This document shows, in pieces, positions 3,382 through 40,427 of a stretch of 50,421 nt of DNA; position 1 is the first letter of the stretch; each line of letters begins with the position of its first letter. The notes beneath the pieces were generated by a model that ran no database searches, was not told the origin of the DNA, and was given only the letters and a program-made list of their open reading frames with translations. Origin of the DNA: Sphaerisporangium sp. (GTDB lineage: Bacteria; Actinomycetota; Actinomycetes; Streptosporangiales; Streptosporangiaceae); NCBI GenBank assembly GCA_025964675.1, contig JAOPYI010000237.1, positions 1 to 50,421 on the forward strand, written 5' to 3'. Made by a program: the position numbers and the translations under genes.

Positions 3382-3409
3382 TTCGAAAGTTGATCGAGAG
3401 CATCTCGAC
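3382..3409. promoter_or_regulatory. SARP-type box, three TCGA repeats, 11-bp period
   Basis: TCGA occurs at 3383, 3394 and 3405, an exact 11-bp period. It lies between the start of the multicopper oxidase gene (3328, minus strand) and the end of the SDR gene at 3419. Direct repeats one helical turn apart are the known geometry of SARP operators. Assignment to the SARP encoded at 9269 is inference. Confidence 0.65.
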
Positions 3410-3418
3410 GGGCCTCGC

Positions 3419-4171
3419 TCAGCGCCCGCCGGCGGTGTGGATGACCTCGCCGTTGACGTTGCCGTTGGCGTCCGAGCAGAGGAAGACGATCAAGCGGGCG
3501 ACCTCGTCCGCGGTGCTCAGGCGGCCGCTCGGGGTCTCCTGAGCGGCCCGCTCGAGCAGCGCGGGGTCCACCGCGTCGAGGCTCTCCGTGAGCGTGCCTC
3601 CGGGCGCGACCACGTTCGCGAGCACGCCGTCACGGGTCCACATCAGTGCGCGTACGAACCCGTGCAACGACGCCTTGGCGGCGCTGTAGAGCTCCGAGCC
3701 CGGGTTCCCGTACGTGGCGGTGATCGAGGACAGCATGACGATGCGCCCCCAGCCGCGCTCGCGCATCCCGCCCAGGGCCTGCCGCACGGTCCACATGTGG
3801 CCTTCGACGTTCTCGCGGAACCGGTCGAGCCAGTAGTCCATGGGAAAGTCCTGGTACGGGGGCATCTCTTCCGGGTTGGTCCACACCCATGTCTGCGCGT
3901 TGGCCACGACGACGTCGACCCCGCCCCAGCGGTCCTCGACCGCGCTCACCGTCTCCTTGATGGAGTCGGGATCGGCGAGGTCGTACCGCAGGGCGCACGC
4001 CCGGTCGTCGCCACCCAGCTCCTCGACGATGCGCTTGGCCACTGCGTCGGAGGTGTGATAGGTGATGGCGACCCGTGCGCGCTCCTGGGCGAACATACGC
4101 GCGGTGGCGAGGCCGATCCCGCGGGTGGCGCCGGTGATCAGTACGCGCTTGTCTTCCAGGCCAAGGTCCAT
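3419..4171 (-). CDS. Short-chain dehydrogenase/reductase
   Basis: SDR of 250 aa with the cofactor motif TGATRGIG near residue 12, YSAAK catalytic Tyr/Lys about residue 155 and a serine in SSIT just before it. The start at 4171 (MDLGLEDKR) is chosen because GTGAGG precedes it and the start aligns with the related SDR at 40964. Longer upstream reading would add a non-SDR stretch. The normally conserved NNAG motif reads ANAQ, unusual in the family, though the catalytic residues are intact. It diverges from the TenA-like gene at 4352; the shared gap holds an 11-bp-spaced TCGA/TCGG repeat. Likely a ketone or quinone reductase in tailoring; substrate unknown. Confidence 0.82.
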   Translation of the reverse strand: MDLGLEDKRVLITGATRGIGLATARMFAQERARVAITYHTSDAVAKRIVEELGGDDRACALRYDLADPDSIKETVSAVEDRWGGVDVVVANAQTWVWTNPEEMPPYQDFPMDYWLDRFRENVEGHMWTVRQALGGMRERGWGRIVMLSSITATYGNPGSELYSAAKASLHGFVRALMWTRDGVLANVVAPGGTLTESLDAVDPALLERAAQETPSGRLSTADEVARLIVFLCSDANGNVNGEVIHTAGGR

Positions 4172-4236
4172 TGCGTATTCCTCACGGTCTCGCTGCTCGG
4201 CTTCGAGGACATGCCAACCATCAATTTCCGTCAGCG

Positions 4237-4255
4237 GGCTCGAGAGCGGCTCGGG
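4237..4255. promoter_or_regulatory. SARP-type box between divergent genes
   Basis: GGCTCGAG at 4237-4244 is repeated as GGCTCGGG at 4248-4255, a spacing of 11 bp with one mismatch. It lies 66 bp from the minus-strand SDR start and 97 bp from the TenA-like start, so it could serve both. Confidence 0.5.
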
Positions 4256-4351
4256 CGGCCAGCCGCGCACGCCGCAACGTGCTCCAGTAGGCGTCAAGCA
4301 GGCGCCGGTACCTTCCCCACCGGGACTTCTCGCCGCGACGAAGGAAGACCG

Positions 4352-5020
4352 ATGCTGCACGAAGAACTCATGGAGATCAGGGACCCGGTACTACGGAAGG
4401 TGCAGGACCATCCCTTCTGGTCGGGTCTGCGTGACGGTTCACTACCTGGCGAGTCGCTCGCCTATTTCGTCCAGCAGGACACCGGGTACCTGCTCCCCGC
4501 CTACGCCCGCGCGCTGGCCCGGTGCGCGGCCGCCGCCCCGGACGACGCGGACACGTTCCTGCTCGGGCAGTCGGTCGCCGGCACGCTGATGGCCAGGGAC
4601 AAGCTGCGCCAGGCCTACACCGGCCTGGCCGGCCGGCTCGGCCTGCCGGAGCTCGGTGCGCAGCCGCTTCTGGATCCGGCGACGCACGCGCACACCTCGT
4701 TCTTCGCCGCCGCGAGCGCGAGGTCGTTCTACGCCGGCATCGGCGCGCTGCTCCCCATGGTGTGGTTCAACGCCGAGGTGTCCGACAGCCTGAAGGAGAA
4801 CGCCTCTCCCGGCTCCCGCTACCTGCCGTGGATCGAGGTCTACCACCCGGGCGAGTCCTACGGGTACGCGGTGCGGGCGTTCCTGGACATGGTCGACCGG
4901 GCCGGCGAGAGCTGCTCGGCGTGGCAGCGCGAGCTGATTGTCGAGCAGTTCTCCATCAGCATCCGTTACGAATGGGCATTCGCCGAATGCTGCACTCAAC
5001 AGCCCTCGTGGCCGGTTTGA
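4352..5020 (+). CDS. TenA-like (heme-oxygenase-fold) protein without thiaminase cysteine
   Basis: An all-helical TenA/thiaminase II family protein of 222 aa. The start at 4352 (MLHEELMEI) follows AAGGAAG. Seen: HPFWSGL near the N-terminus, the QD pair in FVQQDTGYLLPAYARALA, and the C-terminal YEWAFAE that carries the family glutamate. In true thiaminases a Cys nucleophile sits in an LPCxW segment. Here the segment is LLPMVWFNAEV, with Met instead of Cys, so thiamine hydrolysis is not expected. A second copy at 29014-29712 has the same change. The cluster context suggests a polyketide-tailoring or chaperone-like role. The P450 gene follows 49 bp downstream on the same strand. Confidence 0.8.
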   Translation: MLHEELMEIRDPVLRKVQDHPFWSGLRDGSLPGESLAYFVQQDTGYLLPAYARALARCAAAAPDDADTFLLGQSVAGTLMARDKLRQAYTGLAGRLGLPELGAQPLLDPATHAHTSFFAAASARSFYAGIGALLPMVWFNAEVSDSLKENASPGSRYLPWIEVYHPGESYGYAVRAFLDMVDRAGESCSAWQRELIVEQFSISIRYEWAFAECCTQQPSWPV

Positions 5021-5069
5021 CACATACATCCTTGGCACGAAGCAGCCGACGAGAAAGGTCGCCAGCGAG

Positions 5070-6269
5070 ATGAGCATCCAAACTCCCATTCCATACCCTT
5101 TCCAGTGGACGCCCCCGATGGAGGTCCCCGAGGGGCTACGGGGCCTGCGAGAGAAGGCCCTCGTCGAGGTCACGCTGCCGAGCGGTGACACGGCCGTCAT
5201 GGTGACCCGGTACAAGGACGTCAGGAAGCTGTTCGCCGACGAACGGCTGAGCAAGAACATCGCCAGGCCTGGAGTCGCGAGGATCTCCGCCGACAACGAG
5301 CTGTTCGTCGACCCCGAGATCGACGCCGACCCGCCGGACCACACGCGGATGCGCGGCCTTGTGACCAAGGCGTTCACCGCGCGCCGGATCGAGCTGCTGC
5401 GCCCGTTCGCGCAGGCCACCGCCGATGAGCTGCTGGACCAGATGGCGGCTGGCCCGAGGCCGACCGACCTGAACGAGGCGCTGGCGTTCCCGCTGCCGAT
5501 CCTGGTGATCTGCAAGCTGCTCGGCATCCCCCCGGAGGACAGGACCAAGTTCCGCAGCCTGGTGGACGGGTTCCTCTCGGTGACCAAGCTGCCGCCGGAC
5601 GAGGTCGAGGAGTCCCGCAAGGGCCTGTGGGCCTATCTCATCGACCTGATCGCCTCCAAGCGGGCGAACCTGGGCGACGACCTGATCAGCGCTCTCATCA
5701 AGGTCCGGGACGAGGACGACAACCGGCTGTCGGAGCACGAGCTGCACTTCTGGACGCAGAGCCTGCTCATCGCCGGCTACGTCACCACGGCGAGCCAGAT
5801 CGGCACCGGCACCGCGGTGCTGCTGCACCGCCGGGACCTGGTCAAGGAGATCCAGGCCGACTACTCGCTGGTGCCGTCCGCGGTGGAGGAGCTGCTGCGG
5901 ACGCAGATCATGGGCTCCTCGATCGGCACCCTGCGCTACGCGGTGACCGACATCCCGCTGTCGGACGGCACGGTCATCAAGGAGGGCTCCAGCGTCCTGC
6001 TGTCGGAGGAGTCCGCGAACATGGACGAGAGCGTCTTCACCGACCCGTTCCGGCTCGACATCCGCCGCGAGGACAACCACCACATGACGTTCGGGGCCGG
6101 CATCCACTACTGCGTGGGCGCGGCGCTGGCCCGGATGGAGCTGCAGGTGGCGACCGAGAGCCTGCTGCGGCGGTTCCCGGACGTCCGCCTCGCTGTTCCG
6201 GCCGAGGACCTGCCGCGGGGTCTCGGCGGATTCATGGAGGGATTCAGCGACATCCCGGTCGTCTGGTGA
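5070..6269 (+). CDS. Cytochrome P450
   Basis: Soluble bacterial P450 of 399 aa, the usual length for actinobacterial class I enzymes. Start at 5070 (MSIQTPIPYP) with AAAGG upstream. Visible motifs: K-helix EELLR (about 272-276) and heme loop FGAGIHYCVG with the thiolate Cys348. The I-helix reads AGYVTT where most P450s have AG-x-D/E-T-T, so the acidic residue of the proton relay is replaced by Val. Such substitutions occur in P450s with non-hydroxylating chemistry such as coupling or ring closure. A ferredoxin that could supply electrons is encoded at 17062-17250. In related polycyclic xanthone pathways P450s form methylenedioxy bridges; whether this one does is unknown. Confidence 0.92.
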   Translation: MSIQTPIPYPFQWTPPMEVPEGLRGLREKALVEVTLPSGDTAVMVTRYKDVRKLFADERLSKNIARPGVARISADNELFVDPEIDADPPDHTRMRGLVTKAFTARRIELLRPFAQATADELLDQMAAGPRPTDLNEALAFPLPILVICKLLGIPPEDRTKFRSLVDGFLSVTKLPPDEVEESRKGLWAYLIDLIASKRANLGDDLISALIKVRDEDDNRLSEHELHFWTQSLLIAGYVTTASQIGTGTAVLLHRRDLVKEIQADYSLVPSAVEELLRTQIMGSSIGTLRYAVTDIPLSDGTVIKEGSSVLLSEESANMDESVFTDPFRLDIRREDNHHMTFGAGIHYCVGAALARMELQVATESLLRRFPDVRLAVPAEDLPRGLGGFMEGFSDIPVVW

Positions 6270-6280
6270 CCGGATTCGGC

Positions 6281-6382
6281 GCCGGTTTCCCGTTGAATTC
6301 ACGGGCGCCTTTTGCGCGGTGGTGGCGCGGCGCACGCGTGCACGAGAAACCGGCCCTGCCGTAATGGAAGTGCGCCGGTTTT
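6281..6382 (+). promoter_or_regulatory. Mutually exclusive hairpins after the P450 gene
   Basis: GCCGGTTTC at 6281-6289 can pair with GAAACCGGC at 6346-6354. The same middle segment can instead pair with GCCGGTTTT at 6374-6382 (8 bp plus flanks). The arms compete, so this could be a terminator with an antiterminator alternative, or simply two hairpins in a 255-bp gap before the next SDR gene. Confidence 0.3.
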
Positions 6383-6524
6383 CCGAGGGCGTGGCCGACT
6401 CTATTGCAAGGATGCGCGGGCACGCCCGTGGAGACGGATCCTCCGGACGATTTCGAGATCTCCCCCATGCGTTTCCGCCGGCGCGGCGACGCGGGCGCCC
6501 CCGCGGCATTGTGAAGGTGGACGG

Positions 6525-7226
6525 ATGACTGACGGGAACGCGGCAGCCGAGCGGCGCACCGCTCTCATCACCGGAGCCAACCGCGGTATCGGCCGCGCGG
6601 TCGCCGCCGAGCTTTACCGCCGGGACCTACGGGTGGTGGTCACAGCGCGCGACGCCGACGCGGCACGCGAGGCGGCCGCCGGAATCGGCCCCGGCGTCCT
6701 CTGGCACGCGCTGGACGTCACCGATCCGGACGGCGTCAGCCGGCTCGGCAAGGAACTCGGCCCGGTCGACGTGCTGGTGTCCAACGCCGGCGTCCTGCTG
6801 GACGGGGGCACCGACGCGCTGTCGGTGCCGCTCGAGCTCGTCGAGGAGACGCTGCGGGTGAACCTGCTCGGGTCGTGGCGGGTGACGCAGGAGTTCATCC
6901 CGCCCATGGTCGAGCGGGGGTGGGGGCGCGTGGTGCTGATCTCCAGCGGCACGACCGCCGAGTTCGGCGGCGCCCTGTTCGCGGGCGCTCCCGGCTACTC
7001 GCTGTCGAAGAGCGCGCTGAACGGGCTTACCACGCTGCTGGCCTCCCAGACGGCGGGTTCGGGGGTGCTGGTGAACGCGGTGAACCCAGGACGGGTGCGC
7101 ACCAGGATGATGCCGAACCAGCAGACCCTTCCCGAAGACGCGGCCCGGTTCATCGCCGACGTGGCGACCCTTCCAGCCGACGGGCCGACCGGGCGATTCC
7201 TCACTGAGAAGCGCGGCCAGGGCTGA
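6525..7226 (+). CDS. Short-chain dehydrogenase/reductase
   Basis: SDR of 233 aa. Motifs: TGANRGIG near residue 17, SNAG about 87, serines in ISSGTT about 145 and YSLSK about 160. The ATG at 6525 follows GAAGGTGG and gives the normal family N-terminus. The loop before the YSLSK motif holds a short insertion (GGALFAGAP). The chain is slightly short at the C-terminus. It is followed 28 bp later by another SDR gene on the same strand, so the two are probably co-transcribed. Expected to reduce a keto group or oxidise an alcohol on the polyketide; substrate not predictable. Confidence 0.83.
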   Translation: MTDGNAAAERRTALITGANRGIGRAVAAELYRRDLRVVVTARDADAAREAAAGIGPGVLWHALDVTDPDGVSRLGKELGPVDVLVSNAGVLLDGGTDALSVPLELVEETLRVNLLGSWRVTQEFIPPMVERGWGRVVLISSGTTAEFGGALFAGAPGYSLSKSALNGLTTLLASQTAGSGVLVNAVNPGRVRTRMMPNQQTLPEDAARFIADVATLPADGPTGRFLTEKRGQG

Positions 7227-7254
7227 GGCTCGCGTCCTAGCAACAGGAGACGGC

Positions 7255-8037
7255 ATGGAATTCGACCTGTCCGGTAAGAAGGCCGTGGTCACCGGGGCCG
7301 GAGCCGGGATCGGGCTGGCGGTCGTGCGGGCACTCGCCTCCACGGGCGCCGACGTGCTCGGCGGCGCGCGCACCATCACCCCGGAGCTGCTCGCCGCCAC
7401 GCCCCACACGTTCGAGGTAGACCTCATGACCACCAAGGGGCCCCGGCTCCTGGTGGAACGGGCGCTCGCGGACTTCGGTGGCGTCGACGTACTCGTCAAC
7501 AACGTCGGCGGTGGTGTGAAACTGGCGGCCGGCTTCCTCGACATCGAGGACGACGTCTGGCAGCACGCCTTTCAGCTCAACGTCCTGACCACGATACGGG
7601 CGACCCGCGCGGCGCTGCCCAGCCTGGTCGAACGCAAGGGGGCCATCATCAATATCGGATCGATGAACGCGACCATGGTGGATCCCCGGCTCGGCCACTA
7701 TTCGGCGGCCAAGGCCGCCCTCGCCAACATCGGCAAGGCGTTGTCGGCGGAGTTCAGCTCGCAGGGGGTCCGCGTCAACACGATCTCCCCCGGGCCGGTG
7801 CGTACCCGGCTCTGGACCAACCCGGAGATCGCGCGGCGAGCCGGGGTGACCCCGGAGGAGTTCGTCGCGATGGTGCCCAAGATGGCCGGGCTGTCCACCG
7901 GCGAGATGATAGAACCCGACGAGGTTGCGGCCCTGGTGCTGCTGCTGGCGTCCGGCAAGGTGCGCAGCGTCACGGGCTCGGACTACACGATCGACGCCGG
8001 AATGGCTCCTCCGGCGCACTACAACCGCCCGACATGA
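7255..8037 (+). CDS. Short-chain dehydrogenase/reductase
   Basis: SDR of 260 aa with TGAGAGIG (14-21), NNVGGG (about 82-87), a serine in NIGSMNA (about 140) and YSAAK (about 153-157). The NNAG motif is NNVG, a common variant. The ATG at 7255 follows ACAGGAGACGGC. It is the last gene of the plus-strand group that starts with the TenA-like gene at 4352. The gap after it carries a strong hairpin (8132-8210). A role in redox tailoring is inferred from context. Confidence 0.85.
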   Translation: MEFDLSGKKAVVTGAGAGIGLAVVRALASTGADVLGGARTITPELLAATPHTFEVDLMTTKGPRLLVERALADFGGVDVLVNNVGGGVKLAAGFLDIEDDVWQHAFQLNVLTTIRATRAALPSLVERKGAIINIGSMNATMVDPRLGHYSAAKAALANIGKALSAEFSSQGVRVNTISPGPVRTRLWTNPEIARRAGVTPEEFVAMVPKMAGLSTGEMIEPDEVAALVLLLASGKVRSVTGSDYTIDAGMAPPAHYNRPT

Positions 8038-8131
8038 ACCGTCACCGCCGCGCGCCGGGGGCCTTCCGGGGGCGGTGGAACGGATCGGTGGAGACGCCAA
8101 GCGCGCAGGCCGGGGTCTGGTGACCGCCCGG

Positions 8132-9149: not shown

Positions 9150-9230
9150 AATGAAAACGACAACGAGGTCAACTGGGCTTCGAGTGTCCTTCTAGCGGGC
9201 CGAGGTTAGCATCCTAGGCGTGTGCTCATT

Positions 9231-9250
9231 GTGAACATATGTGAACATAT
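9231..9250. repeat. Tandem 10-mer next to the SARP ribosome binding site
   Basis: GTGAACATAT occurs twice in tandem (9231-9240, 9241-9250), followed by GTGAT, directly before the GGAGGGGG ribosome binding site. Such a repeat could be an operator or influence translation start choice, since it supplies in-frame and out-of-frame GTG/ATG codons. Confidence 0.4.
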
Positions 9251-9268
9251 GTGATCGGAGGGGGCAAA

Positions 9269-11888: not shown

Positions 11889-12016
11889 GTGCTCGGCGTG
11901 TCCGGAGGCGAGATCTTCACCTGACCGCTGCGATCCCTGCTCGAGCCCGTCACCGAGGACTACGCCGACCCGTGCCGCGGCCCTGTGACCTGCGGGGCGG
12001 CGGCGCTGCGGCGACG

Positions 12017-12034
12017 GCTCGAGATCCGCTCGAG
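12017..12034. promoter_or_regulatory. SARP-type box upstream of first ABM gene
   Basis: GCTCGAG at 12017-12023 and again at 12028-12034, exactly 11 bp apart. It lies about 140 bp before the ABM gene at 12176. The same arrangement stands before the duplicate ABM gene (40410-40427). Confidence 0.7.
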
Positions 12035-12175
12035 GATGCTCCCGCGCACCGCCGGCCGCGGCCAGCGAGCTGCCAGCGAACGACCAGCCCGCCTTGGTGT
12101 TGTAGGGGCATGACAGCGACCGCGCCGGCGCGCGCGGCCACCCTGCGAGCGAGCCGGCCAGAAGGAGTAGGAATC

Positions 12176-16971: not shown

Positions 16972-17032
16972 CCACGTCTCCCTCGGTTGGTTCCATAGCT
17001 TCCCGCAGCATGCGGTCGGCGTTTTTAGACGG

Positions 17033-17050
17033 CCTCGACGGCCGCTCGAC
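17033..17050. promoter_or_regulatory. SARP-type box upstream of the amidotransferase gene
   Basis: CTCGAC at 17034-17039 and 17045-17050, giving TCGA at 17035 and 17046, 11 bp apart. It lies between the ferredoxin stop (17062) and the AsnB start (16971), so AsnB and nitroreductase may have their own activated promoter in addition to read-through. Confidence 0.62.
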
Positions 17051-17061: not shown

Positions 17062-17250
17062 CTACTCGGCGCGGATCGACCGGGTCGGGCAGCCGTAGAC
17101 CGCCCTCAGGACCGCTTCGTGCAGCTCGGCCGGCGGGTCCGGGTCGATCACCTCTACCGCGCCGTCCTCGTCCTGGTCGAAGACCTTGGGCACGCGGTAG
17201 ACGCACATGCTGCTTACCACGCAGGTTTCCTTGGTCGCGCTCACGTGCAT
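17062..17250 (-). CDS. Small [3Fe-4S]-type ferredoxin
   Basis: Ferredoxin of 62 aa with the pattern C10-x5-C16 followed by YRVPKVFDQDEDG and a final GCPTRSI (Cys54). Three cysteines in this arrangement typify [3Fe-4S] ferredoxins that feed electrons to actinobacterial P450s. The start at 17250 (MHVSATKETC) fits the family; an upstream ATG at 17274 has no ribosome binding site. The natural partner in this window is the P450 at 5070-6269, although the genes are 11 kb apart. No ferredoxin reductase gene is seen, so a housekeeping one would be used. Confidence 0.85.
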   Translation of the reverse strand: MHVSATKETCVVSSMCVYRVPKVFDQDEDGAVEVIDPDPPAELHEAVLRAVYGCPTRSIRAE

Positions 17251-17435
17251 CACAATCACCGTTCCCAAGGCCATCGGTACGTTGCCAGAAGTACTGTGCG
17301 GCCAGAGGTTCGCGCCGGACTCGAGAGCCGGTGTAGAGGCCGCCAGTCGGGGAGCGCCCCGCCTTCGAGCGATGTTCCATGGTGCTGCGGCATGATCGCG
17401 CCGAGGTGGTCCGCGACGGGAAGGAAGGCCTGCCG

Positions 17436-20532: not shown

Positions 20533-20546
20533 TTGCGTGGCTCCTT

Positions 20547-22651: not shown

Positions 22652-22761
22652 TACGCTCCTCTTGGACTCATACGCGGGCCCGACGAGCAGCTCGCTCAGC
22701 GCGCCGCGTCAGCAACCGGGCTACCAACGTGAGCAATGGTCCGTGCCGTCCCTGGGGCCAC

Positions 22762-22778
22762 GGTCGAGTCCCGGTCGA
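22762..22778. promoter_or_regulatory. SARP-type box in the 22.7 kb divergent promoter
   Basis: GGTCGAG at 22762-22768 and GGTCGAC at 22773-22779 give TCGA at 22764 and 22775, spaced 11 bp. It lies 111 bp before the minus-strand gene starting at 22651. Confidence 0.65.
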
Positions 22779-22896: not shown

Positions 22897-22915
22897 ATCG
22901 AGAGCCGCTCGATGA
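22897..22915. promoter_or_regulatory. SARP-type box upstream of plus-strand F420-type gene
   Basis: TCGA at 22898 and 22909, spaced 11 bp, about 90 bp before the GTG at 23003. The same stretch also reads as an inverted repeat CATCGAG/CTCGATG, so it could bind a symmetric dimer instead. Confidence 0.6.
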
Positions 22916-23002
22916 CACCTCAAACCGCATTGCGCGCGAGATATCGAGTATTTATCTTGAAATCGTGAGGCCAGGTGCGACTATGTCGTGGAGGGATATT
23001 TC

Positions 23003-25622: not shown

Positions 25623-25689
25623 AAGGGAATGCTCGCCGCCGGGGTTGGAAGACGGCTCGAGCGCTGTTCAACGACGGCGGACTCAGCGC

Positions 25690-27045: not shown

Positions 27046-27088
27046 GGTTCTCCGATCTCAAGGGTCTGCCGATATTGACCAAGCCGGA

Positions 27089-27104
27089 TCGAGAACCGCT
27101 CGGG
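27089..27104. promoter_or_regulatory. SARP-type box upstream of antiporter-halogenase unit
   Basis: TCGA at 27089 and TCGG at 27100, 11 bp apart, 44 bp before the antiporter start on the minus strand. One mismatch in the second half. Confidence 0.52.
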
Positions 27105-27199: not shown

Positions 27200-28810
27200 C
27201 TAGGATACGCAGGACCCTTGGTAGGCGCCCATGTTCGGCGGTCCGCTCGGCAGGCCGAGCCCGTAGAAGTCACGGCCGCCGTTGTCCGGAATGGCGACGC
27301 CCGCGCCGATGGCCGGGGAGCCGCACTTGAGCCGGTATCCGAGGGCGCTCGCGATCCCTGACGCGGTCCCCGGCTTGGTGAACAGGGGATCGGTGGTGAC
27401 CGCGTGGCTGTCGGCCGGGGGGACCGGGCTGACGTTGAGATAGAGGTTGTGGTCGTAGACCCCCGCCGGGTCGGTGATCGTCGAGCCGGTCGCCCTGCCG
27501 GCGAAGATGTTGTTGGTGAACGTGTTCGGCGTGGCGTGGAGGCTTCCCGAGAGCGCGTTGGAGACCGGGCTGTAGACCACGTTGTTGTAGAAGCGAAGGT
27601 TCGTCACCGGATTGTCACAGCCATGGGCGACGACCGGGATCTGGAAGGTGCCCAGCAGCAGGTCCTTGTCGTTCTGGCTGATGTTGTACCGGATGGTCGC
27701 ACCGTCGGTGTTGGATCCGGTGAACGCGCAGAACAGCATGAACGGGCCGTCGTTGTCGTGGCTGAAGTTGTACTGGTACACGATGTTGGAGTTGCCGGCG
27801 TCGACGCTGAAGGCGAAGGACGGCGGGAAGGCGGCACCGTGCGTCACCTCGTTCGACTGGATGACCGGGCGGTTGGAGTTGAACGCGAGGATTCCGGCGT
27901 GGGAGGCCATCGCGCGCAGGCCGAAACCGTCGACCACGTTGTACTCGGTGAGGGAATCGACACCGTTCTGCACGAGGATGCCGTCGCCACCGAGATTGTC
28001 GAGCTTGTTGGCGAAGATGTGCACGTTGGTCATCGGGACGAACGAGTTCGCGCCGGCCGGGTAGAACGTGCTGCGGCGGGACCACTGCGACAGGGTGCCG
28101 ATGCCGATGTTGTCGACGCCGGTGACGGTGTTGAGGGAGACCTCGATCCCGTCGAAGCCGGTGGGTGTGGTGGATCCGGCGGCCTTGAACAGGATGCCGC
28201 CGGTGTTCTCGAGCTCGGGCTGCAGGCAGTCGCAGCCGTTGACGTCATGGACCTTGACGTCGTCGACCTCGTAGTGCTTGCCGGTGCCGTAGTTCTCGAG
28301 GAGCACGTAGATGCCCACGCGCGCTCCTCCGTCCGCGGGGCCCTGGTTGGAGATGTCAAGGTGACGGATCTCCCAGCCCTGCACGTTGTACAGGTACACC
28401 GCCGCGCGAGCGCCGCCGCCGACGATGGCCGGGCGGGCGCCGCTGCCGTAGGCGCTGATGACGTTGGGGGTGGCGGCCGTGCCGGATCCCTTGGGCTGCA
28501 GGACGCCGGTACAGGTGGTGCCCCTGCGCAGGAGAATGGAGTCGCCCGGCTGGAAGGTGACCGTGTTGACACGGGCGAGGGTCCGCCACGCGGTCCCGGT
28601 CGCGGTGCCGGCGGCGGCATCGTTTCCGGCACCACAGTCGAGGTAGTACTGCTTGCCGCTCAACGCATTCGACGCCGCCAGCGCCGAGCCGCCGGGTATG
28701 GCGAACGCGATCCCAAGGCTCATGCCGGCAGCGAGGATGAGTGCCCGGAAGGCTCGTGTGCGGTGCCGCGCACCGTGATTTCTACGTGTCCAGCTCGGTG
28801 TGATACCCAT
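27200..28810 (-). CDS. Secreted right-handed parallel beta-helix protein
   Basis: Protein of 536 aa with an export signal (basic RHRTRAFR, hydrophobic ALILAAGMSLGIAFAIP, Ala-rich end SALAAS). The mature part opens with a DUF1565-like region (YYLDCGAGNDAAAGTATGTAW, about 55-75) and continues with repeating N/G-rich strands (ISNQG, SLNTVTGVDNIG, NKLDNLGGDG, NVVDGFG, NEVTHG). This is the pattern of pectate-lyase-like beta helices. No catalytic Asp/Arg set of a known lyase family can be assigned by eye. The start at 28810 follows GGAGTAAG. Two nearly identical SARP-type boxes stand upstream, so it seems to be a regulon member despite being odd for a polyketide cluster. It could be a cell-wall or extracellular product-handling protein. 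Confidence 0.8.
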   Translation of the reverse strand: MGITPSWTRRNHGARHRTRAFRALILAAGMSLGIAFAIPGGSALAASNALSGKQYYLDCGAGNDAAAGTATGTAWRTLARVNTVTFQPGDSILLRRGTTCTGVLQPKGSGTAATPNVISAYGSGARPAIVGGGARAAVYLYNVQGWEIRHLDISNQGPADGGARVGIYVLLENYGTGKHYEVDDVKVHDVNGCDCLQPELENTGGILFKAAGSTTPTGFDGIEVSLNTVTGVDNIGIGTLSQWSRRSTFYPAGANSFVPMTNVHIFANKLDNLGGDGILVQNGVDSLTEYNVVDGFGLRAMASHAGILAFNSNRPVIQSNEVTHGAAFPPSFAFSVDAGNSNIVYQYNFSHDNDGPFMLFCAFTGSNTDGATIRYNISQNDKDLLLGTFQIPVVAHGCDNPVTNLRFYNNVVYSPVSNALSGSLHATPNTFTNNIFAGRATGSTITDPAGVYDHNLYLNVSPVPPADSHAVTTDPLFTKPGTASGIASALGYRLKCGSPAIGAGVAIPDNGGRDFYGLGLPSGPPNMGAYQGSCVS

Positions 28811-28936
28811 GCCGCTTACTCCAAGAATGTGACTTCGGTGCACAAAGACCGGCGCAGTTGTGACGGCGGCATGGCCGGGTCACTGCGGCTGGTCACCGGA
28901 TGACCGGGCGCTGTCGGGCAGAGTCTGGGGGGGCAG

Positions 28937-29009
28937 GCTCGACGGATGCTCGAAAGGCCGCCGCGCGGGCACCGGGCCTGGAGCCGGCTCGACGCCTGCT
29001 CGAAAGGCC
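28937..29009. promoter_or_regulatory. Duplicated SARP-type box
   Basis: Two copies of a module of about 23 bp, exactly 50 bp apart. The first has TCGA at 28939 and 28950, the second at 28989 and 29000. Within the module only two bases differ (GA versus CC between the half-sites). It lies 127-200 bp before the beta-helix start and just after the TenA-like stop at 29014. Confidence 0.68.
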
Positions 29010-29712: not shown

Positions 29713-29714
29713 CG

Positions 29715-32071: not shown

Positions 32072-32119
32072 CGTTCCTGCCATCTCTGTGACGTTTCCTG
32101 GATCGGCCGCTGAAGGCCG

Positions 32120-33403
<1,284 letters not shown>

Positions 33404-33414
33404 AGGTCACTCCG

Positions 33415-34635
33415 TTAACTTGTCTGCTTCACGACGATCGCCGCGTTGAATCCGCCGTAGCCGCGGGCGAGGACCATGGCGGTGCGGACCCGCGCCTCAC
33501 GAGGCGCGCCCCGTACCAGGTCGATGTCGCAGCCCGGCGCCAGCTCGGTGACGCCGGCCGTGGGCGGGATGACACCGTCGCGGATGGCCAGCAGGGCGCT
33601 GGCCAGGTCGAGCGCCCCGCCCCCGGCGTAGAGCCTGCCGGTCATCGTCTTCGGGGCCGTGACGGGAACGCCGCTCGGGCCGAAGACCGCGGAGATGGCC
33701 GTGGCCTCCTGCAGGTCGAGCTCCGGCACCCCGGCCGCGTCCGCGAAGACCACGTCGACGTCGCCGGCGGCCAGCTCCGCGTCGGACAGCGCCAGATCCA
33801 TGGCCCGGCGCAGCCCCGGCTCGCGGCCGGATCCCGGACGCGGGTCGAAGGTGGAGGCGTAGCCGGCGATCTCGCCGTAGATGACCGGCGCGGATCGGGC
33901 GAGCGCGTCGGACGCGTTCTCCACGACCAGCATCGCGCCGCCTTCGCCGGGCACGTAGCCGGCCGCGCCGACGTCGAAGGGCAGGTAGGCCCGGCTCGGG
34001 TCGGCGCCCTCGCTCAGCCTGCCGTTGCTGTACTGCGCGGTCACCCCGTACGGGCACAGCGACGCGTCTGCGCCGCCGGTGACCACCAGCCGTGTGCCGG
34101 TCCTGATGAGCTGGCGCGCCTGCCCCGCGGCGTCCAGTGCCCCCGCCTGCTCGGCGCAGATGACCCCGCACGAACCGCGCATCCCGTGACGGATGGAGAT
34201 CTGTCCGGTGGTGGCCGCGTAGAACCAGGCGATCGACTGGTAGGCGCCGACCCAGGAGGGCCCCTTGGACCACAGCCGCTCGATCTCCCGCTGGCCGAAC
34301 TCGGTGCCCCCGGACGAGCTGGCGGTCACCACCGCCATCTCGTACTCGGGGAACGCCGTGGGATCGGCCGCCGCGTCCTCCAGTGCCCAGGCCGCCGCGG
34401 TCAGCCCGAGGTGGGTCCAGTTGTCCGTCTGCGGGATGAGACGGCTGGGCACGTGGTCGGAGGCGGTGAAGTCGCTCACCTCACCGCCTACGCGGACGGG
34501 GTAGCCGGCCGCGTCGAACCGGCTGATCGGGCCGATGCCGCTGCGCCCTTCGAGCGTGGCCGCCCAGTACGCCTCGGTGCCGAGCCCGTTCGGCGCGGTG
34601 ACACCGATTCCGGTGACGACAGCCCTCCTGGTCAT
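33415..34635 (-). CDS. Ketosynthase beta / chain length factor
   Basis: KS-beta of 406 aa. The active-site Cys of KS-alpha is replaced by Gln in CAEQAG (Gln163), the hallmark of chain length factors, which also decarboxylate malonyl-ACP for priming. It keeps the thiolase fold but lacks the catalytic His pair. The start overlaps the KS-alpha stop by four bases (ATGA), giving equal production of the heterodimer. Chain length cannot be read by eye; the cyclase set suggests a long chain (24-30 carbons). Confidence 0.95.
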
Positions 34636-35900
34636 GCCGCCCGGTCCCGTTTGATCACCATGGCGGTCTGGAAGCCGCCGAACCCGCTGCCGACGCTCAG
34701 CACCGACTCGATGGGGTGCTGCCGGGCGGTCAGCGGCACGTAGTCCAGGTCGCACTCCGGGTCGGGGGTGTGCAGGTTGGCCGTCGGCGGCACCACCTGG
34801 TGTTCGATGGCGAGCGCGCAGGCGGCCACCTCGATCGACCCGATAGCGCCGAGCGAGTGCCCCACCATCGACTTGATGGAGCTGACCGGCACCTCGTACG
34901 CACGGTGGCCGAGCGCGCTCTTGAAGGCGGCGGTCTCGTGCCTGTCGTTCTGCTTGGTGCCTGAACCGTGCGCGTTGATGTAGTCGATGTCCGCGGCGTC
35001 CATGCGGCCCACCTTCATGGCCTGGCGGATCGCCTCCGCCATCTCGCGCCCGTCGGGCTTGAGACCGGTCATGTGGTAGGCGTTGCTGCGACTGGCGAAC
35101 CCGGCGATCTCGGCGTAGATGTGCGCTCCGCGCCGGTGGGCCGCCTCGCGCTCCTCGAGCACGAAGACGGCCGCGCCCTCGCCGAGCACGAACCCGTCGC
35201 GGTGCGCGTCGAACGGCCTCGAGGCGTGGGACGGGTCGTCGTTGTTCGACGACGTCGCCTTGATCGCGTCGAAGCACGCCGCCGTGATCGGTGAGAGGGG
35301 CGCGTCGGTGGCGCCGGCGATCACGACGTCGGCGCGGCCGGTCCAGATCATCTGGACGCCGTTGCCGACCGAGTCGAGCCCGGCGGTGCACCCGGTGGAG
35401 ATCAGCGACACCGGGCCCTCGGCCCCCGCCGTCCAGGCGACCTCGCACGCCATCGTGCTCGGCACCATGTACCCGTAGAGGTGCTGCACCGCGTAGGCGG
35501 GATCGACGAGCCAGCGCCGGCCCCCGTCGCTCAGCACGACGTACTCCTCCTCGAGTCCCATCGTGCAGCCGACGGCGCTGCCGATGCTGACGCCGATCCG
35601 CTCCGGCGGGACGTCGCCCTCCTCCAGGCCGCTGTCGGCCAGGGCCTCTCTGGCGCACACGACGCCGAACTGCGCGGCCCGGTCCATCCGGCGGATCTCC
35701 TGCGGGCTCAGCCCCTCGGCGGCGGGATCGAAGTCGCACTCGGCCCCGACACGGGAGCGGAACCCTGACGCGTCGAACAGCGTGATGTTCCGCGTGGCGG
35801 TGCGCCCGGCGGTGAGCTGATCCCAGAACGCCTTGGTCCCGATGCCGCCCGGGGCCGTCACACCGATCCCGGTGATGACGACGCGCCTGTCACTGACCAT
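34632..35900 (-). CDS. Ketosynthase alpha of the type II PKS
   Basis: KS-alpha of 422 aa, the condensing subunit. Catalytic Cys171 in STGCTAGLD, His311 in NAHGSGT and His348 in KSMVGHS are all present. The ATG at 35900 overlaps the cupin stop (TGATG). It forms the minimal PKS with KS-beta and ACP. No KSIII or acyltransferase for an unusual starter is in the window, so an acetate starter is the default. Malonamate priming through the AsnB homolog is an alternative, as known for oxytetracycline. Confidence 0.96.
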
Positions 35901-36352
35901 CAGCGGGGCCCTCCCACGTCGAGTACGGGCTCCGCGACCCCCGACGTCGGCAGCGGCTCCGTGTCGACGTGGCCCAGCTCGGGCCGCGGCGCCAGCGGGC
36001 CCAGGTGGAAGACCGCGTGCACCTCCTCGACGCCGTTGTTCCAGACCCGGTGCCGCAGCCCCTTCGGGACCATCAGCCCTTCGCCGACCCCGAGCTCGAT
36101 CTCCACGTTCTCGATCCGGGCGGTCAGCCGGCCGCGCACCACGAAGAGGAACTCCTCGGAGTACGGGTGGTAGTGCTCGGCCACGAATTCCCCGGGCTTG
36201 AGCGTCAGCGTGCCCATGAACCCGGAGGTCGAGGCCACGGTCTTCGGGCTGAGGACCACGCGGATGTCACCGCCGCGCCGCCGGTTCGGCGCCACGTCGG
36301 ACGCGGCCACCTTCGACGGCGCGAACAGCTCGTCCACCACCTGCTCACTCAC
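35900..36352 (-). CDS. Cupin-type polyketide cyclase
   Basis: Cupin of 150 aa. The metal-binding motif reads [15 protein letters not shown] (first motif, about 66-80) and the second motif is RHRVWNNG with a later VFHLGP. Cupins next to the KS genes in WhiE-like and pentangular clusters act as cyclases for later rings. The start is a GTG at 36352 with GGGAGGCAAGC before it, overlapping the TcmI-like stop by eight bases. An earlier in-frame start would give a long Arg/Thr-rich leader that is not part of the fold. Belongs to the core operon. Confidence 0.85.
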
Positions 36353-36671
36353 CGCTTGCCTCCCAGACGTAGAAAGGTGCCGCCATCGCGTCTTTCGGCT
36401 CCTGCCAGTTCGGGTCGTACGGCCTGATGTGCTTGGCAAGCCGCTGGTTGACGTCGTCATAGAGCGGGTGGCTTCGCGCCTTGTAGAGGTTCGGCGAGAT
36501 GTCCTCGTCCGCCTCCACCAGGTGGAAGTAGAGGTCATGGAAGCGGAAGAGCGTTCGCCGTGATACTCCGACCATCCGGGGCAGGTCGGTGGCGTCCGAG
36601 TCCGCGAAAATCTGCGCCACGCTGTCCGCCTCGGCCGGTTCCATCCGGGCGACGATCAATGTCCGATGCAC
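36345..36671 (-). CDS. TcmI-like polyketide cyclase
   Basis: Small ferredoxin-like cyclase of 108 aa, the Cyclase_polyket family (TcmI, WhiE-ORFVII). Signature segments include HRTLIVARM, FADSDATDLPRMVGV, LFRFHDLYFHLVEAD, RSHPLYDDVNQRL and IRPYDPNW. The start is a GTG at 36671 preceded by GAGAGGAGTT; an ATG at 36701 has no ribosome binding site. It is the first gene of the core PKS operon, so the divergent promoter with two SARP-type boxes drives the whole PKS. It closes one of the last rings of the aromatic skeleton. Confidence 0.9.
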   Translation of the reverse strand: MHRTLIVARMEPAEADSVAQIFADSDATDLPRMVGVSRRTLFRFHDLYFHLVEADEDISPNLYKARSHPLYDDVNQRLAKHIRPYDPNWQEPKDAMAAPFYVWEASGE

Positions 36672-36725
36672 CCCGGAACTCCTCTCGTTCGGTGCCGCCA
36701 TGCTGATGCCGTTGTGTCTGGTTCC

Positions 36726-36743
36726 GGTCGAATCCGGCTCGAA
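36726..36743. promoter_or_regulatory. SARP-type box upstream of the core PKS operon
   Basis: TCGAA at 36728 and 36739, 11 bp apart, 55 bp before the GTG start of the TcmI-like gene. Best candidate for the operator that drives the minimal PKS genes. Confidence 0.68.
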
Positions 36744-36850: not shown

Positions 36851-36868
36851 CTCCGAGTACAGCTCGAG
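36851..36868. promoter_or_regulatory. SARP-type box upstream of the dehydrogenase gene
   Basis: CCGAG at 36853 and TCGAG at 36864, 11 bp apart with one mismatch, about 70 bp before the plus-strand GTG at 36937. Confidence 0.5.
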
Positions 36869-36936
36869 TCAGGGACCGCAGGGTGACGACAGGCACATCA
36901 GCGCCGACGTACCGTCATCGTCGAAGGGTGACCGTT

Positions 36937-37812
36937 GTGAGCAGCGACAAAGAGCTGGCGTTCATCGGGCTCGGTGGTATGGGCGCCGGCATGGCACTGT
37001 GCCTGCGAAGGGCCGGATTCCCTCTCGTGGTGCACAACCGCACCGCGGCCAAGGCCGTGCCACTGGCCGAGGCGGGAGCGCGCGTCGCCGCCTCGGCCGC
37101 CGAGGCGGCCGGGGGCGCCCGGATCGTCGTCCTCAGCCTCAGCGACGAGGCGGCGGTCGAGCAGGTCCTCTTCGGCGAGCTGTCCGGGCGGCTGCTTCCC
37201 GGCGCGCTGGTCGTGGACACCTCCACTGTCTCCCCCGCCTACTCCGCGGACGCGACCGAGCGGCTTGCCAGGACCGGCGCCCGGCGCGTCGAGGCGTGCG
37301 TGCTCGGGAACCCCGACATGGCCCAGGGGGGCAAGCTGCGGGTCTTCACGGCCGGGGAGCAGAGCGACGCCGAGGAGGTCGGCGACGTCCTTGCGGCGCT
37401 CGCCCAGGATCTGCGGCATGTCGGCCCGGCCGGTTCGGCCTGCGCGCTGAAGCTGTCGTTCAACCTGATCCTCGGCAACCAGATCGCCGCGCTGGCCGAG
37501 GCGGTGCTGCTGGCCGACAGCGCCGGGCTGGACCGGGACCTGCTTCTGACGGCCGTCACCAAGAGCGGGTTCAGCTCGCCGACGCTGGCGTTCCGCGCGG
37601 AGCTGATGCGGACCCGGCGCTACGAGCCCGCGGCATTCCGCAGCACCCTGATGGAGAAGGATCTGCGTCTCGCGGTCGGCGAGGCAGCCGCGCACGGCCT
37701 CGAGCTTCCCGTCACGGCGCGCGTGGCCGACCGGTTCACCGAGACCGTCCTCGCCGGTGACGGCGACAAGGACGCCGCCGTCGTGGTGGAGCTGCGCTCC
37801 CCCGTCCGGTGA
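36937..37812 (+). CDS. Beta-hydroxyacid-dehydrogenase-like NAD(P) enzyme
   Basis: Protein of 291 aa of the 6-phosphogluconate/3-hydroxyisobutyrate dehydrogenase family. N-terminal Rossmann motif FIGLGGMGAGMA (about 9-20), and the catalytic lysine region GSACALKLSFN with the conserved Lys and Asn. An all-helical C-terminal domain follows. The GTG at 36937 (VSSDKELAF) is chosen because GAAGGG lies eight bases before it. It is transcribed alone, divergent from the core operon. Such enzymes oxidise hydroxyacids or, with active-site changes, reduce imines; here the usual lysine is kept. A role in polyketide tailoring is inferred from the SARP-type box only. Confidence 0.8.
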   Translation: MSSDKELAFIGLGGMGAGMALCLRRAGFPLVVHNRTAAKAVPLAEAGARVAASAAEAAGGARIVVLSLSDEAAVEQVLFGELSGRLLPGALVVDTSTVSPAYSADATERLARTGARRVEACVLGNPDMAQGGKLRVFTAGEQSDAEEVGDVLAALAQDLRHVGPAGSACALKLSFNLILGNQIAALAEAVLLADSAGLDRDLLLTAVTKSGFSSPTLAFRAELMRTRRYEPAAFRSTLMEKDLRLAVGEAAAHGLELPVTARVADRFTETVLAGDGDKDAAVVVELRSPVR

Positions 37813-37847
37813 TATCAGGCGCGTCCGGCGCCGGCCTTGGGCGACGA

Positions 37848-39539
37848 TCAGGCGTCGAAGGCAAGCGCCGAGGCCCGCGCGAGGCCACGGGGGTCGCGCC
37901 TGCCGCGGCCCCGAGAGACGGCCACGGGATCCCAGCCTGGCGGGCGTTCTGGCAGCAGCGACGGATCGCCGAGCGTCGCGCCCGCGTGAACCTCCGGCAG
38001 CAGCGAGCGGCCGATGATCTCCGAGGCGCACATGATGCCGCTGACCGCCACACCGGCGATCCCGTTGCCGAAGCGCGTGCTCTGGCCGACCATGTACAGG
38101 CCGGGCACGCTGGTGCCGATGCCGGGGCGCCCGTCGGGCCGGCGGCCCCGTTTCCCCCGGCTGCTCAGACCGTAGGGTGTCCCGCCGCTGCCGAGCCTGT
38201 ACCTCTCGTGGGTCAGCGGCGTGGCCGCCTCCATGTGCACGATGTGGTCGCGCAGCGGCCCCATCGCCTTCTCCGCGGCGGCGAGCAGCGCCTCGGTCAG
38301 CCACCGCTTCGCTTGGAGATAGGCGGGGCCACGCCGGTACCGGACGCCGTCGGCGGGGCCGCCCGCCACACCCCATGGCGCGTGGCCGGGCGGGCGCATG
38401 GCCATCACCTGAAGGCTGCTGTGCCCGGCCGACTCGCCGTCCTCGACGGGGGCGAAGGAGATGAACACGAACGGCAGCTCGTCCTGGACGCCCTCGTGCA
38501 GGCGCGCGTAGCCGCGCTCGAGGTCCTCGCTCGGGAACCACCAGATGTTCGCGTTCGGCAGGTCCGGCAGCGCGATGTCGAGAGTGAGATAGAGGACCGC
38601 CCACGGCAGGCGCGTCGTCGACGCGCTCGCCCGGGCGACGAGGTCCTTGGGGAAGCCCGCCCCGTCGTCGCACAGCTCGAGGATCGTGCGGCGGTAGCCG
38701 GCGTTGGAGACGACGAGCGGCGCGGCGATCTGGCGGCCGTCTGCCAGCTCGACGCCGCTGACGCCGCCGTCGTCGAGCGACACGCGCCGGGCCGCGCATC
38801 GCGTCCACAGCTCGCCGCCGTGCGCCTCGATCACCTCCACAAGCGACGCGATCATCGCCTGCCCGCCGCCGGCCGGGTAGTAGGCACCCCTCAGGTAGTG
38901 GTCGGTGACGGCCGCGTGCGTCGCGACCGAGACGTCGCGAGGCGCGGCGCCGTAGTTGCCGGACTGCGCGGCGAGCACCGTGCGCGCGACCGTGGAAAGC
39001 CCGCAGTGGTCGAACAGCTCGGCGAGCGAGCACCGGCCCCAGAGGAGGTCTCCCCGGCTCCCGCCGCCGGTCTCCGGGCCCTGCGCCAGCAGGCTCCGCC
39101 GGTCGGCGTCGGCGATGCTCTCGCAGACGCGGATGAACTCGGTGATCCCTTCGGCCTCCCGCGGCAGGACCCCGATGAGACGCTGCCGGTACCGCGACCA
39201 TCCGGCCGGGACGTCGACCGTCAGGCCCGGCATGATGATGCGGTCGAAGCCGTCCTGATCCATCTCGAGGAAGGTGACGCGATCGCGGAGGCCGAGGCCG
39301 TTCAGGATGGCGGGGAGGATGCCGTCGGGCCCGCAGTCCCCGAGGTAGTGCACGCCGGCGTCGAGCTGGCAGGAACGGCGGCGGAACACACCGTTGCCCC
39401 CCGCCACGTCGTGCTGTTCGATGACGACGACCCGGCGGCCGCTCGCGGCGAGATACGCGGCGCACACCAGGCCGCCCACCCCCGCCCCGATGACGATCAC
39501 ATCCCAGTCGGCCTTGCTTTCCCAGGCAGAGGCGCTCAT
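37848..39539 (-). CDS. CrtI/phytoene-desaturase-like FAD oxidoreductase
   Basis: Flavoprotein of 563 aa. N-terminal GAGVGGLVCAAYLAASG, split from an acidic VVIEQHDVAGGNG (about residues 18-49), and a C-terminal FAD segment GLYMVGQSTRFGNGIAGVAVSG, all typical of the CrtI/retinol saturase/amine oxidase group. The last 60 residues are a Pro/Arg-rich tail. The ATG at 39539 follows GGGAGACGAC. It is 14 bp after the SDR stop at 39554, so the two are co-transcribed. CrtI-like enzymes isomerise or (de)hydrogenate conjugated C=C bonds. In an aromatic polyketide cluster it could saturate or aromatise a ring. Confidence 0.82.
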   Translation of the reverse strand: MSASAWESKADWDVIVIGAGVGGLVCAAYLAASGRRVVVIEQHDVAGGNGVFRRRSCQLDAGVHYLGDCGPDGILPAILNGLGLRDRVTFLEMDQDGFDRIIMPGLTVDVPAGWSRYRQRLIGVLPREAEGITEFIRVCESIADADRRSLLAQGPETGGGSRGDLLWGRCSLAELFDHCGLSTVARTVLAAQSGNYGAAPRDVSVATHAAVTDHYLRGAYYPAGGGQAMIASLVEVIEAHGGELWTRCAARRVSLDDGGVSGVELADGRQIAAPLVVSNAGYRRTILELCDDGAGFPKDLVARASASTTRLPWAVLYLTLDIALPDLPNANIWWFPSEDLERGYARLHEGVQDELPFVFISFAPVEDGESAGHSSLQVMAMRPPGHAPWGVAGGPADGVRYRRGPAYLQAKRWLTEALLAAAEKAMGPLRDHIVHMEAATPLTHERYRLGSGGTPYGLSSRGKRGRRPDGRPGIGTSVPGLYMVGQSTRFGNGIAGVAVSGIMCASEIIGRSLLPEVHAGATLGDPSLLPERPPGWDPVAVSRGRGRRDPRGLARASALAFDA

Positions 39540-39553
39540 GTCGTCTCCCGCAT

Positions 39554-40294
39554 TCAGATCGCGATCCCGCCGTGGATCTCGATGACGCTGCCGGTGATGT
39601 ACTGGGCGCGATCGGAGGACAGGAAGGCGACCAGCTCGGCCACCTCCTCCGGACGTCCGAACCGCTTCAGGGCTATCGCTTCCGTCAACCGGCGCCTGGC
39701 CTGCTCGCTGAGCTTGTCGGTCATGTCCGTGCCGATGAGGCCGGGCGCGACCACGTTGGCCCGCACGCCGTGGCCGCCGACCTCCTTGGCCAGCGCCCGG
39801 GTGAAGCCGATGATGCCGGCCTTGGACGCCGAGTAGTTCGTCTGCGCCGCGTTGCCGTAGACCCCGGCCACCGAGGAGATCGTGACGATGCAGCCCGACC
39901 GGCGCTTCATCATGCCGAACACCGCGGCACGGCACAGGTGGTAGACGCCGCCCATGTTGGTGCGGATCACCTCGTCCCAGGCGGCCTCGTCGGTGAGCAC
40001 CAGCGGCCCGTCCCTGGTGATGCCGGCCGACGTCACGACCACATCGACGCCACCGAGCTCCTCCTCGGCGCGGGCGACCCAGGCGCGCGTCTCCTCGCCC
40101 TGGGACACATCAACCTGGACCGGGAGGACCCGGCCGCCGAACTCCTGGGCTTCCTTCGCGACCTGCGTGGCCGGCCCTTCGGCGCTGCGGTAGCAGAAGC
40201 CGACGTCGAACCCGTCCTGTGCGAGCCTCAGCACGATCGCGCGGCCGATGCCGCGTGACCCCCCGCTGACGAGCGCTACCTTCGTGTCACTCAT
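39554..40294 (-). CDS. FabG-like ketoreductase (SDR)
   Basis: SDR of 246 aa closest in layout to FabG and polyketide C-9-type ketoreductases. Motifs: SGGSRGIG (10-17), SAG (about 89), ISSVAG (about 139), YSASK (about 152-156) and a FabG-type C-terminus with SVIEIHGGI. The ATG at 40294 follows GGGAGATC. First gene of a two-gene operon with the CrtI-like gene; divergent from the ABM gene at 40536, with a SARP-type box in the shared gap. It is the best candidate for the ketoreductase acting on the nascent poly-beta-ketone. Confidence 0.86.
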   Translation of the reverse strand: MSDTKVALVSGGSRGIGRAIVLRLAQDGFDVGFCYRSAEGPATQVAKEAQEFGGRVLPVQVDVSQGEETRAWVARAEEELGGVDVVVTSAGITRDGPLVLTDEAAWDEVIRTNMGGVYHLCRAAVFGMMKRRSGCIVTISSVAGVYGNAAQTNYSASKAGIIGFTRALAKEVGGHGVRANVVAPGLIGTDMTDKLSEQARRRLTEAIALKRFGRPEEVAELVAFLSSDRAQYITGSVIEIHGGIAI

Positions 40295-40409
40295 CGCGAT
40301 CTCCCATGCCCCGGAGCGGTATGCCTTTGGACCGCCGCTGGCGGACCGGCTGACATGCCGCGATCGATGACCTGCCACAGAAGATTGCCACCGGCGCTGC
40401 GGGGACGGC

Positions 40410-40427
40410 TCGAGACCGGCTCGAGAA
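40410..40427. promoter_or_regulatory. SARP-type box in the 40.4 kb divergent promoter
   Basis: GCTCGAG at 40410-40416 and 40421-40427, exactly 11 bp apart. Same sequence and spacing as before the first ABM gene (12017-12034). It can serve both the ketoreductase (minus) and ABM (plus) units. Confidence 0.72.

Follow-up and report, generated by a model that had tools for sequence, protein, structure and literature searches.

The stretch of DNA analysed here (the window, 50,421 nt from Sphaerisporangium sp.) makes up an entire contig (C91) of a 7.77 Mb genome. From about 0.1 to 43.5 kb it carries a type II polyketide cluster, in which Pfam recognises a ketosynthase pair, a polyketide cyclase, aromatic-ring hydroxylases, a flavin-dependent halogenase, an asparagine-synthase-like amidotransferase, a P450, LLM oxidoreductases and a single Streptomyces antibiotic regulatory protein (SARP). 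Gaps between these genes contain direct repeats of TCGA exactly 11 bp apart, which an earlier reading of the sequence (the original prediction) had taken for the operators of a cluster-wide SARP regulon. Gene calls were made with our own script, and the coding status of loci outside the window was judged by a rough test of GC content by codon position.

The presence of one SARP gene, as predicted, was borne out by Pfam matches of its product (627-aa call) to Trans_reg_C (1e-7), BTAD (8e-47) and NB-ARC (6e-13, residues 293-495). The protein thus has the OmpR-like DNA-binding domain followed by BTAD that defines SARPs, and the NB-ARC domain without TPR tail that defines medium-sized ones; its sole Pfam TPR match, at residues 24-69, is below the cut-off. 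AfsR chains match residues 3-545 of a shorter, 563-aa call, and the AfsR equivalog model NF053617 of NCBIfam scored 474 bits against a cut-off of 1430. Close orthologues (74-90% identity) were found in Streptosporangium minutum, S. carneum, S. canum, Microtetraspora sp. and Nonomuraea cypriaca, all three genera being Streptosporangiaceae. A sixth match, from a Chloroflexi bin, was dropped as partial and 29% identical, and an 84% match in a genome of the window's own family has the same coordinates as the Microtetraspora locus. Blocks of the cluster were matched in the five relatives at 73-90% DNA identity; the cluster spans two contigs in S. minutum and N. cypriaca, and a block of 3.4-8.0 kb (window 3416-8052) is inverted in four of the five. 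No title retrieved in a search for literature on Streptosporangium with pentangular type II polyketides or with SARPs (titles only) concerned this cluster.

The window contains 11 exact TCGA-N7-TCGA pairs, as against 0-2 pairs at the control spacings of 10, 13, 14, 16, 17, 19 and 20 bp (2, 1, 0, 1 and 1 at the first five), which upholds the predicted excess over chance. All pairs listed originally were present, save that 40412/40423 is correctly 40410/40421; one pair, 11413/11424, had been omitted. Ten of the 11 lie wholly within the 6,614 noncoding bases (6,422 when the ferredoxin-like ORF 17062-17253 is counted as a gene), where Markov-1 simulation gave a mean of 0.20 pairs and a maximum of 3 in 1000 runs. 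The whole genome holds 166 pairs at 11 bp (11 in the window, 155 outside), 138 at 10 bp and 152 at 13 bp. As the 10- and 13-bp counts are similar, the 155 outside pairs represent background, a genome-wide excess of SARP boxes at 11 bp is ruled out, and the excess therefore belongs to this cluster: at the outside rate 1.0 pair would be expected in the window (Poisson P ~1e-8). Equal density inside genes or genome-wide, the outcome that the original prediction had named as its refutation, was not seen.

The repeats are also oriented, reading TCGAGC-N5-TCGA on one strand. This motif occurs at 28 places in the genome, and the seven within the window are all on the minus strand, that of most cluster genes. 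Furthermore, a -10-like NANNNT begins either 15 nt after the T of the 3' TCGA (a 7-nt heptamer plus 8 bp) or 26 nt after it (one 11-bp turn more), a rule first noticed by eye in alignments and counted afterwards. When 12 window sites were tested (3383, 4240, 12019, 17035, 22764, 22898, 27089, 28939, 28989, 36728, 36853 and 40410), nine fitted one of these offsets, eight of them in the minus orientation and 36853 in the plus; offset 15 was found at five sites, 26 only at four more and neither at three. At the noncoding NANNNT frequency of 0.027, the binomial P for nine of 12 is ~2e-7. Other pairs of offsets 11 apart performed worse, the best (six sites) sharing offset 26 and the next reaching 3. 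In the minus orientation, NANNNT stood at offset 15 four times and at 26 five times (27089 in both), and eight times over the other 38 offsets tested. Among 28 exact pairs of the five relatives, counted in both orientations, it stood at 15 seven times, at 26 21 times and over the other 38 offsets 24 times (next highest: five at 36, four at 16). Thus 26 of the 28 fit the rule, but as they are mostly orthologues of one another they show conservation and not 28 independent events.

Published SARP operators consist of repeats 11 or 22 bp apart with the -10 element at 8 bp, as set out in the relevant parts of the reports on AfsR structures (PMC10936776) and on five activated oxy promoters (PMC4393881). 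Here, the 11-bp spacing is found throughout and the 8-bp distance at the offset-15 sites. The repeats therefore match published operator geometry, so that the SARP interpretation is well supported, and the fixed -10 distance adds a published criterion that the original prediction had left aside. The 26-nt class can be read as carrying a degenerate third repeat. Such a unit is recognisable at the halogenase (TCCA), ferredoxin (GCGA) and SDR 41033 (GCGA) promoters, and hardly so at 17035, 22764, 36728 and 40410; three-repeat sites are known for DnrI, ActII-ORF4, VlmI and FdmR1, according to the section of PMC10972967 on such sites.

Repeats and -10 elements recur in the orthologous clusters of the five related species. 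In intergenic alignments the repeats form islands, and in most gaps the sites and the -10 are more conserved than their surroundings. Across seven gaps, identity to the window was 75-100% in TCGA columns and 100% in the A/T columns of the -10, against 44-74% in other gap columns; the TCGA figure of the 16971 gap, in which the ferredoxin-like gene also lies, is depressed by a slip in the alignment.

A matrix trained on eight promoter families, with a -10 term, was run upstream of 30 window genes and their orthologues. Its scores at the training families are not independent, because these had been found by the -10 rule, and the S. canum and S. minutum training rows of the plus-strand family (36671 gap) came from the wrong place. 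Beyond the training set, candidate boxes were found for the halogenase, ferredoxin-like and SDR 41033 genes (six of six species each) and for the P450 genes (five of five, low score), and a hydroxylase gene whose promoter is cut by the window start has a box in four relatives. The window has 32 places scoring above 11, compared with 5-18 in ten Markov-2 shuffles, and its cluster part (43.5 kb) has nine above 18. In 119 kb of other loci of the same genome, not a neutral sample because they were chosen for TCGA pairs or BTAD genes, 56 places scored above 11, 16 above 15 and one above 18. The 95% level of random 300-nt stretches of the cluster, with true sites among them, is 15.0; hence, by score alone, neither the P450 box nor the SARP box is strong. 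Right of 43.5 kb, three genes (LysR, NMT1-like and 48323) have no box and the 6.9 kb contain no place above 15, and this box-free DNA probably marks the edge of the cluster.

Outside the window, NANNNT stands at 15 or 26 in three of the 21 places with the exact motif, of which only the one on contig C188 is noncoding-like; four other noncoding-like places have no NANNNT at these offsets. A stricter pattern, with the -10 at 15, occurs at 11 places in the genome (four in the window, one on C188, six elsewhere), and its backward control at 2. Four of the six are coding-like; the two noncoding-like ones (L113, C173:29473, and L115, C201:2045) may represent chance or further targets.

The predicted boxes and principal genes are collected in Table 1. 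Of the transcription units that the sites were said to define, 13 have a predicted promoter with a -10 on the grid; 28989 is a duplicate confined to the window, and 12019 lies in a duplicated promoter and has no such -10.

Table 1. Predicted boxes and principal genes in the window ("yes" marks the 13 promoters with a -10 on the grid)
Feature	Position	Strand	-10 on grid	Details
Multicopper oxidase, predicted target	1898..3328	-		Tat-like leader (RRDAIKLGA)
Box, multicopper oxidase	3366..3408	-	yes	repeats 3383/3394/3405, -10 GAGGGT 3366-3371; orthologous gap absent in five relatives
Box 4240, SDR 3419-4171	4223..4254	-	yes	-10 GAAATT, offset 15; 3' repeat and -10 kept in 5/5 species that have the gap; in some, 5' repeat degenerate
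Box, TenA-like/P450 genes 4352-6269, perhaps to 8037	4283..4314	+	yes	degenerate TCCAG-N6-TCAAGC, TACCTT at offset 15; same arrangement in 5/5 species, score 12-15; not in training set
Box upstream of SARP gene	9180..9212	+		degenerate TCGAGTG-N4-TCTAG, TTAGCAT; weak autoregulation candidate
Medium-sized SARP gene, 621 aa	9269..11134	+		presumed reader of the boxes; start conserved in orthologue alignment
Exact pair 12019	12019..12033			lies ahead of ABM gene 12176 in a duplicate of the 40410 promoter; no -10 on grid
Box 17035, asparagine-synthase-like gene 15115-16971	17007..17049	-	yes	-10 CATGCT, offset 26; 6/6 species
Box, ferredoxin-like ORF	17293..17335	-	yes	three units TACA/TCGA/GCGA, CACAGT; 6/6 species, scores 14-20; not in training set
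Box 22764, LLM oxidoreductase operon 19519-22651	22736..22778	-	yes	-10 GACCAT (GACACT or GACATT in relatives), offset 26; 6/6 species
Box 22898 and third unit 22920, perhaps for LLM 22988-24004	22898..22926	+		no -10 on grid; block conserved, largely lost in N. cypriaca
Box, flavin-dependent halogenase 24207-25622	25629..25671	-	yes	three units, GAGCAT; 6/6 species, scores 12-21, weakest in N. cypriaca; also genome pattern match; not in training set
Box 27089, Na/H exchanger 25690-27045	27072..27103	-	yes	-10 CAATAT, offset 15; 3/3 species with the gene
Right-handed beta-helix protein, predicted target	27200..28810	-		Pfam PF13229; Sec-like leader; paralogue on C188
Box 28939, beta-helix protein 27200-28810	28922..28953	-	yes	-10 CAGACT, offset 15; 6/6 species
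Upstream duplicate of box 28939	28989..29003	-		no -10; window only
Box 36728, ketosynthase operon 29014-36671	36700..36742	-	yes	-10 CAGCAT, offset 26; 6/6 species
Box 36853, dehydrogenase 36937-37812, divergent	36853..36884	+	yes	-10 CAGGGT, offset 15; 6/6 species, 5' repeat one mismatch
Box 40410, SDR 39554-40294	40382..40424	-	yes	-10 CAATCT, offset 26; 6/6 species
Box, SDR operon 41033-43476	40891..40933	+	yes	three units CCGA/TCCA/GCGA, CATCTT; 6/6 species, scores 17-21; not in training set

Judging from the close spacing of its genes, 29014-36671 would form one operon, and box 40410 probably also serves the FAD gene 37848-39539 behind SDR 39554. Since its score does not exceed the 95% level of random cluster stretches, the TenA-like/P450 box rests on conservation. 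The ferredoxin-like ORF (17062-17250, 62 aa, CVVSSMCVYRVP...), named by eye, lies in the gap ahead of the AsnB-like gene and is conserved in the relatives; it has no NCBIfam match. At 17365, before methyltransferase 17379, lies a doubtful candidate: the box runs into the called start codon, and in S. canum another place scores better. Conservation at 19692 is no evidence because the site lies inside a gene.

Of the one-mismatch pairs put forward originally, 4240, 27089 and 36853 are backed by orthologues, whereas 9060/9071, upstream of the SARP gene, is present in none of the five aligned orthologues, and autoregulation through this pair was rejected. The other upstream box of this gene is the best-scoring place in only four of six species (score 9-12). 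Directly ahead of the SARP start, at 9230-9256, tandem TGTGAACATA repeats occur, possibly the site of another regulator; S. canum and S. minutum have them too, whereas the aligned rows of S. carneum and Microtetraspora lack them.

As for the duplicated promoter, 11950-12176 and 40295-40536 are alike and precede two ABM monooxygenase paralogues, genes 12176 and 40536. For both paralogues, the best match in each of the five relatives is a single shared gene, situated at either place. Without a -10 on the grid, 12019 is unsupported as a working box. The multicopper oxidase gene with its triple box adjoins the inverted block 3416-8052. No orthologue of this gene was found in the five related clusters, the only homologue (36%) lying in the Microtetraspora flank. 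The prediction that two of the units encode secreted proteins fits by eye the leaders of this oxidase and of the beta-helix protein.

The beta-helix gene also has counterparts outside the clusters. On contig C188 of the same genome, a full box at 27502-27533, with no other place above 15 in the contig's 30 kb, lies 70 nt before a second beta-helix gene (from 27572), whose product is 66% identical to the window protein and which is adjoined by a paralogue of the FAD gene 12915-14363 (81% DNA identity). Sequence thus points to this locus as a likely satellite of the regulon. In Microtetraspora, too, a satellite beta-helix gene (contig C12) has a box at 11230 directly before its start (TCCA/TCAA, TACCGT at 15), the only place above 15 in the surrounding 20 kb. 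Its score of 16.9 is moderately strong against the random level, and the evidence is moderate because the box is degenerate. At E <= 1e-40, S. minutum, S. carneum and S. canum have the cluster copy only, and N. cypriaca has two copies in tandem. Eight of the nine copies in six species carry a box directly upstream; the ninth, in N. cypriaca, closely follows a boxed copy and its own gap was unscored. Judged by eye, the hydrophobic leader of the cluster copy is apparently missing from both satellite copies and from the second one of N. cypriaca. The beta-helix gene family is the less usual feature of this regulon, and its satellite is the part that a specialist would not expect; a literature search gave no paper linking right-handed beta-helix proteins with type II polyketide clusters. 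It is conceivable, but rather doubtful, that the regulon is centred on the beta-helix family as much as on the polyketide: the SARP would control a secreted copy in six clusters and, in trans, a leaderless paralogue (here with a FAD paralogue beside it), and the beta-helix proteins would carry out a so far unrecognised step in the synthesis, folding or export of the aromatic product.

The repeats, with their orientation, fixed distance to the -10, conservation and concentration in the cluster, are in our opinion operators of the cluster's own SARP. We give this reading, in which the binding, the activation and the identity of the SARP are what we infer, a probability of about 0.85. Several observations weigh against it. 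Three of the tested sites (12019, 22898 and 28989) have no -10 on the grid, and one exact pair (11413) lies in the coding DNA of a DUF1707 gene and was rejected as a regulatory site. In the 4171 gap, conservation of the TCGA columns (75%) barely exceeds that of the other columns (72%), and S. canum and S. minutum are near-identical in the gaps, so that the six species amount to fewer independent cases. The matrix found no convincing own box in the window for the nitroreductase, FAD 12915 and NmrA genes, and no box with a -10 for the two ABM genes. The box upstream of the SARP gene is degenerate, its TAGCAT being one base off the grid. Finally, of the residues through which AfsR contacts its target, T88 is kept by alignment, but the position of R92 is occupied by K in all six SARP orthologues.

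Who reads the boxes could nevertheless be answered differently. The genome contains 23 BTAD matches, one of which, an AfsR-like paralogue on contig C6, is 50% identical to the SARP with a very similar recognition helix (TLHTYVYKLRK vs TLQTYIYKLRK), and four places above score 15 occur on C6. Such a regulator might read most boxes, with the cluster SARP acting on some only or standing above it. The best match of the SARP has 47-51% identity in all ten genomes sampled from the same genus, which indicates that such paralogues are widespread in the genus and the cluster SARP is not; yet all five species with a close orthologue of the cluster SARP have boxes in the same cluster, and the 78 kb C6 contig has no place above 18, versus the nine in the cluster part of the window. 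We therefore regard this arrangement as unlikely.

Another 11-bp-repeat regulator, for example a response regulator of the PhoP type, is a far less probable reader. PhoP boxes are in general 11-bp repeats, but the core here is TCGAGC, the SARP core of ActII-ORF4 and DnrI, and the genome has no 11-bp excess elsewhere, as a phosphate regulon would produce. According to the passages of the two reports on these repeats, the AfsR repeat CGTT(T/C)ATCGNN is also recognised by PhoP (PMC10972967), and TCGA occurs within CGGTCGAAG of the oxyI promoter (PMC4393881). Chance or base composition might be invoked because TCGA pairs are common at codon-multiple spacings in the window (4-10 each at multiples of 3 from 6 to 39 bp), but it is already refuted by the tests of spacing, position and conservation, and we consider it negligible.

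If the cluster's own SARP is the reader, two protomers would bind next to each other on repeats spaced by one helical turn, with 8 bp between the last repeat and a weak -10 downstream, and would take the role of a proper -35 in recruiting RNA polymerase. At promoters whose exact pair stands one turn further up, a degenerate third repeat would fill the 11 bp. A single activator could thus turn on the 13 predicted promoters from about 3.3 to 43.5 kb together with a beta-helix gene elsewhere in the genome. The afsS promoter with AfsR, as presented in the promoter sections of PMC10936776, is alike in its two 11-bp direct repeats, side-by-side dimer, box overlapping the -35, NB-ARC-bearing SARP and weak -10 (CACTGT at afsS, CAGGGT/CACAGT here at 36853), but AfsR regulates globally, has a TPR tail and uses a different repeat sequence. 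OtcR of the oxytetracycline cluster, in the promoter sections of PMC4393881, is likewise one cluster SARP with several promoters carrying 11-bp-spaced repeats and a -10 at 8 bp; five oxy promoters were shown to be activated there, whereas here 13 are predicted, together with one locus outside the cluster. FdmR1 of the fredericamycin cluster and other medium-sized SARPs share the NTPase domain, and an FdmR1 site has three heptameric repeats, as stated in the relevant parts of PMC10972967 and PMC12692060.

Mechanistically, it is ordinary for a type II polyketide cluster to be driven by a medium-sized SARP with an NB-ARC domain, and the cluster regulon is a well-delimited further case of a known kind. 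What is gained is a testable map, drawn from sequence only, of an entire antibiotic regulon in a family other than that of Streptomyces, giving the promoters to expect, the probable end of the cluster (~43.5 kb) and its unusual members (beta-helix protein, multicopper oxidase and Na/H exchanger). Combined with comparison of orthologues, the -10 distance rule makes SARP boxes recognisable despite degenerate repeats, which would help to annotate silent clusters and to pick the activator for overexpression.

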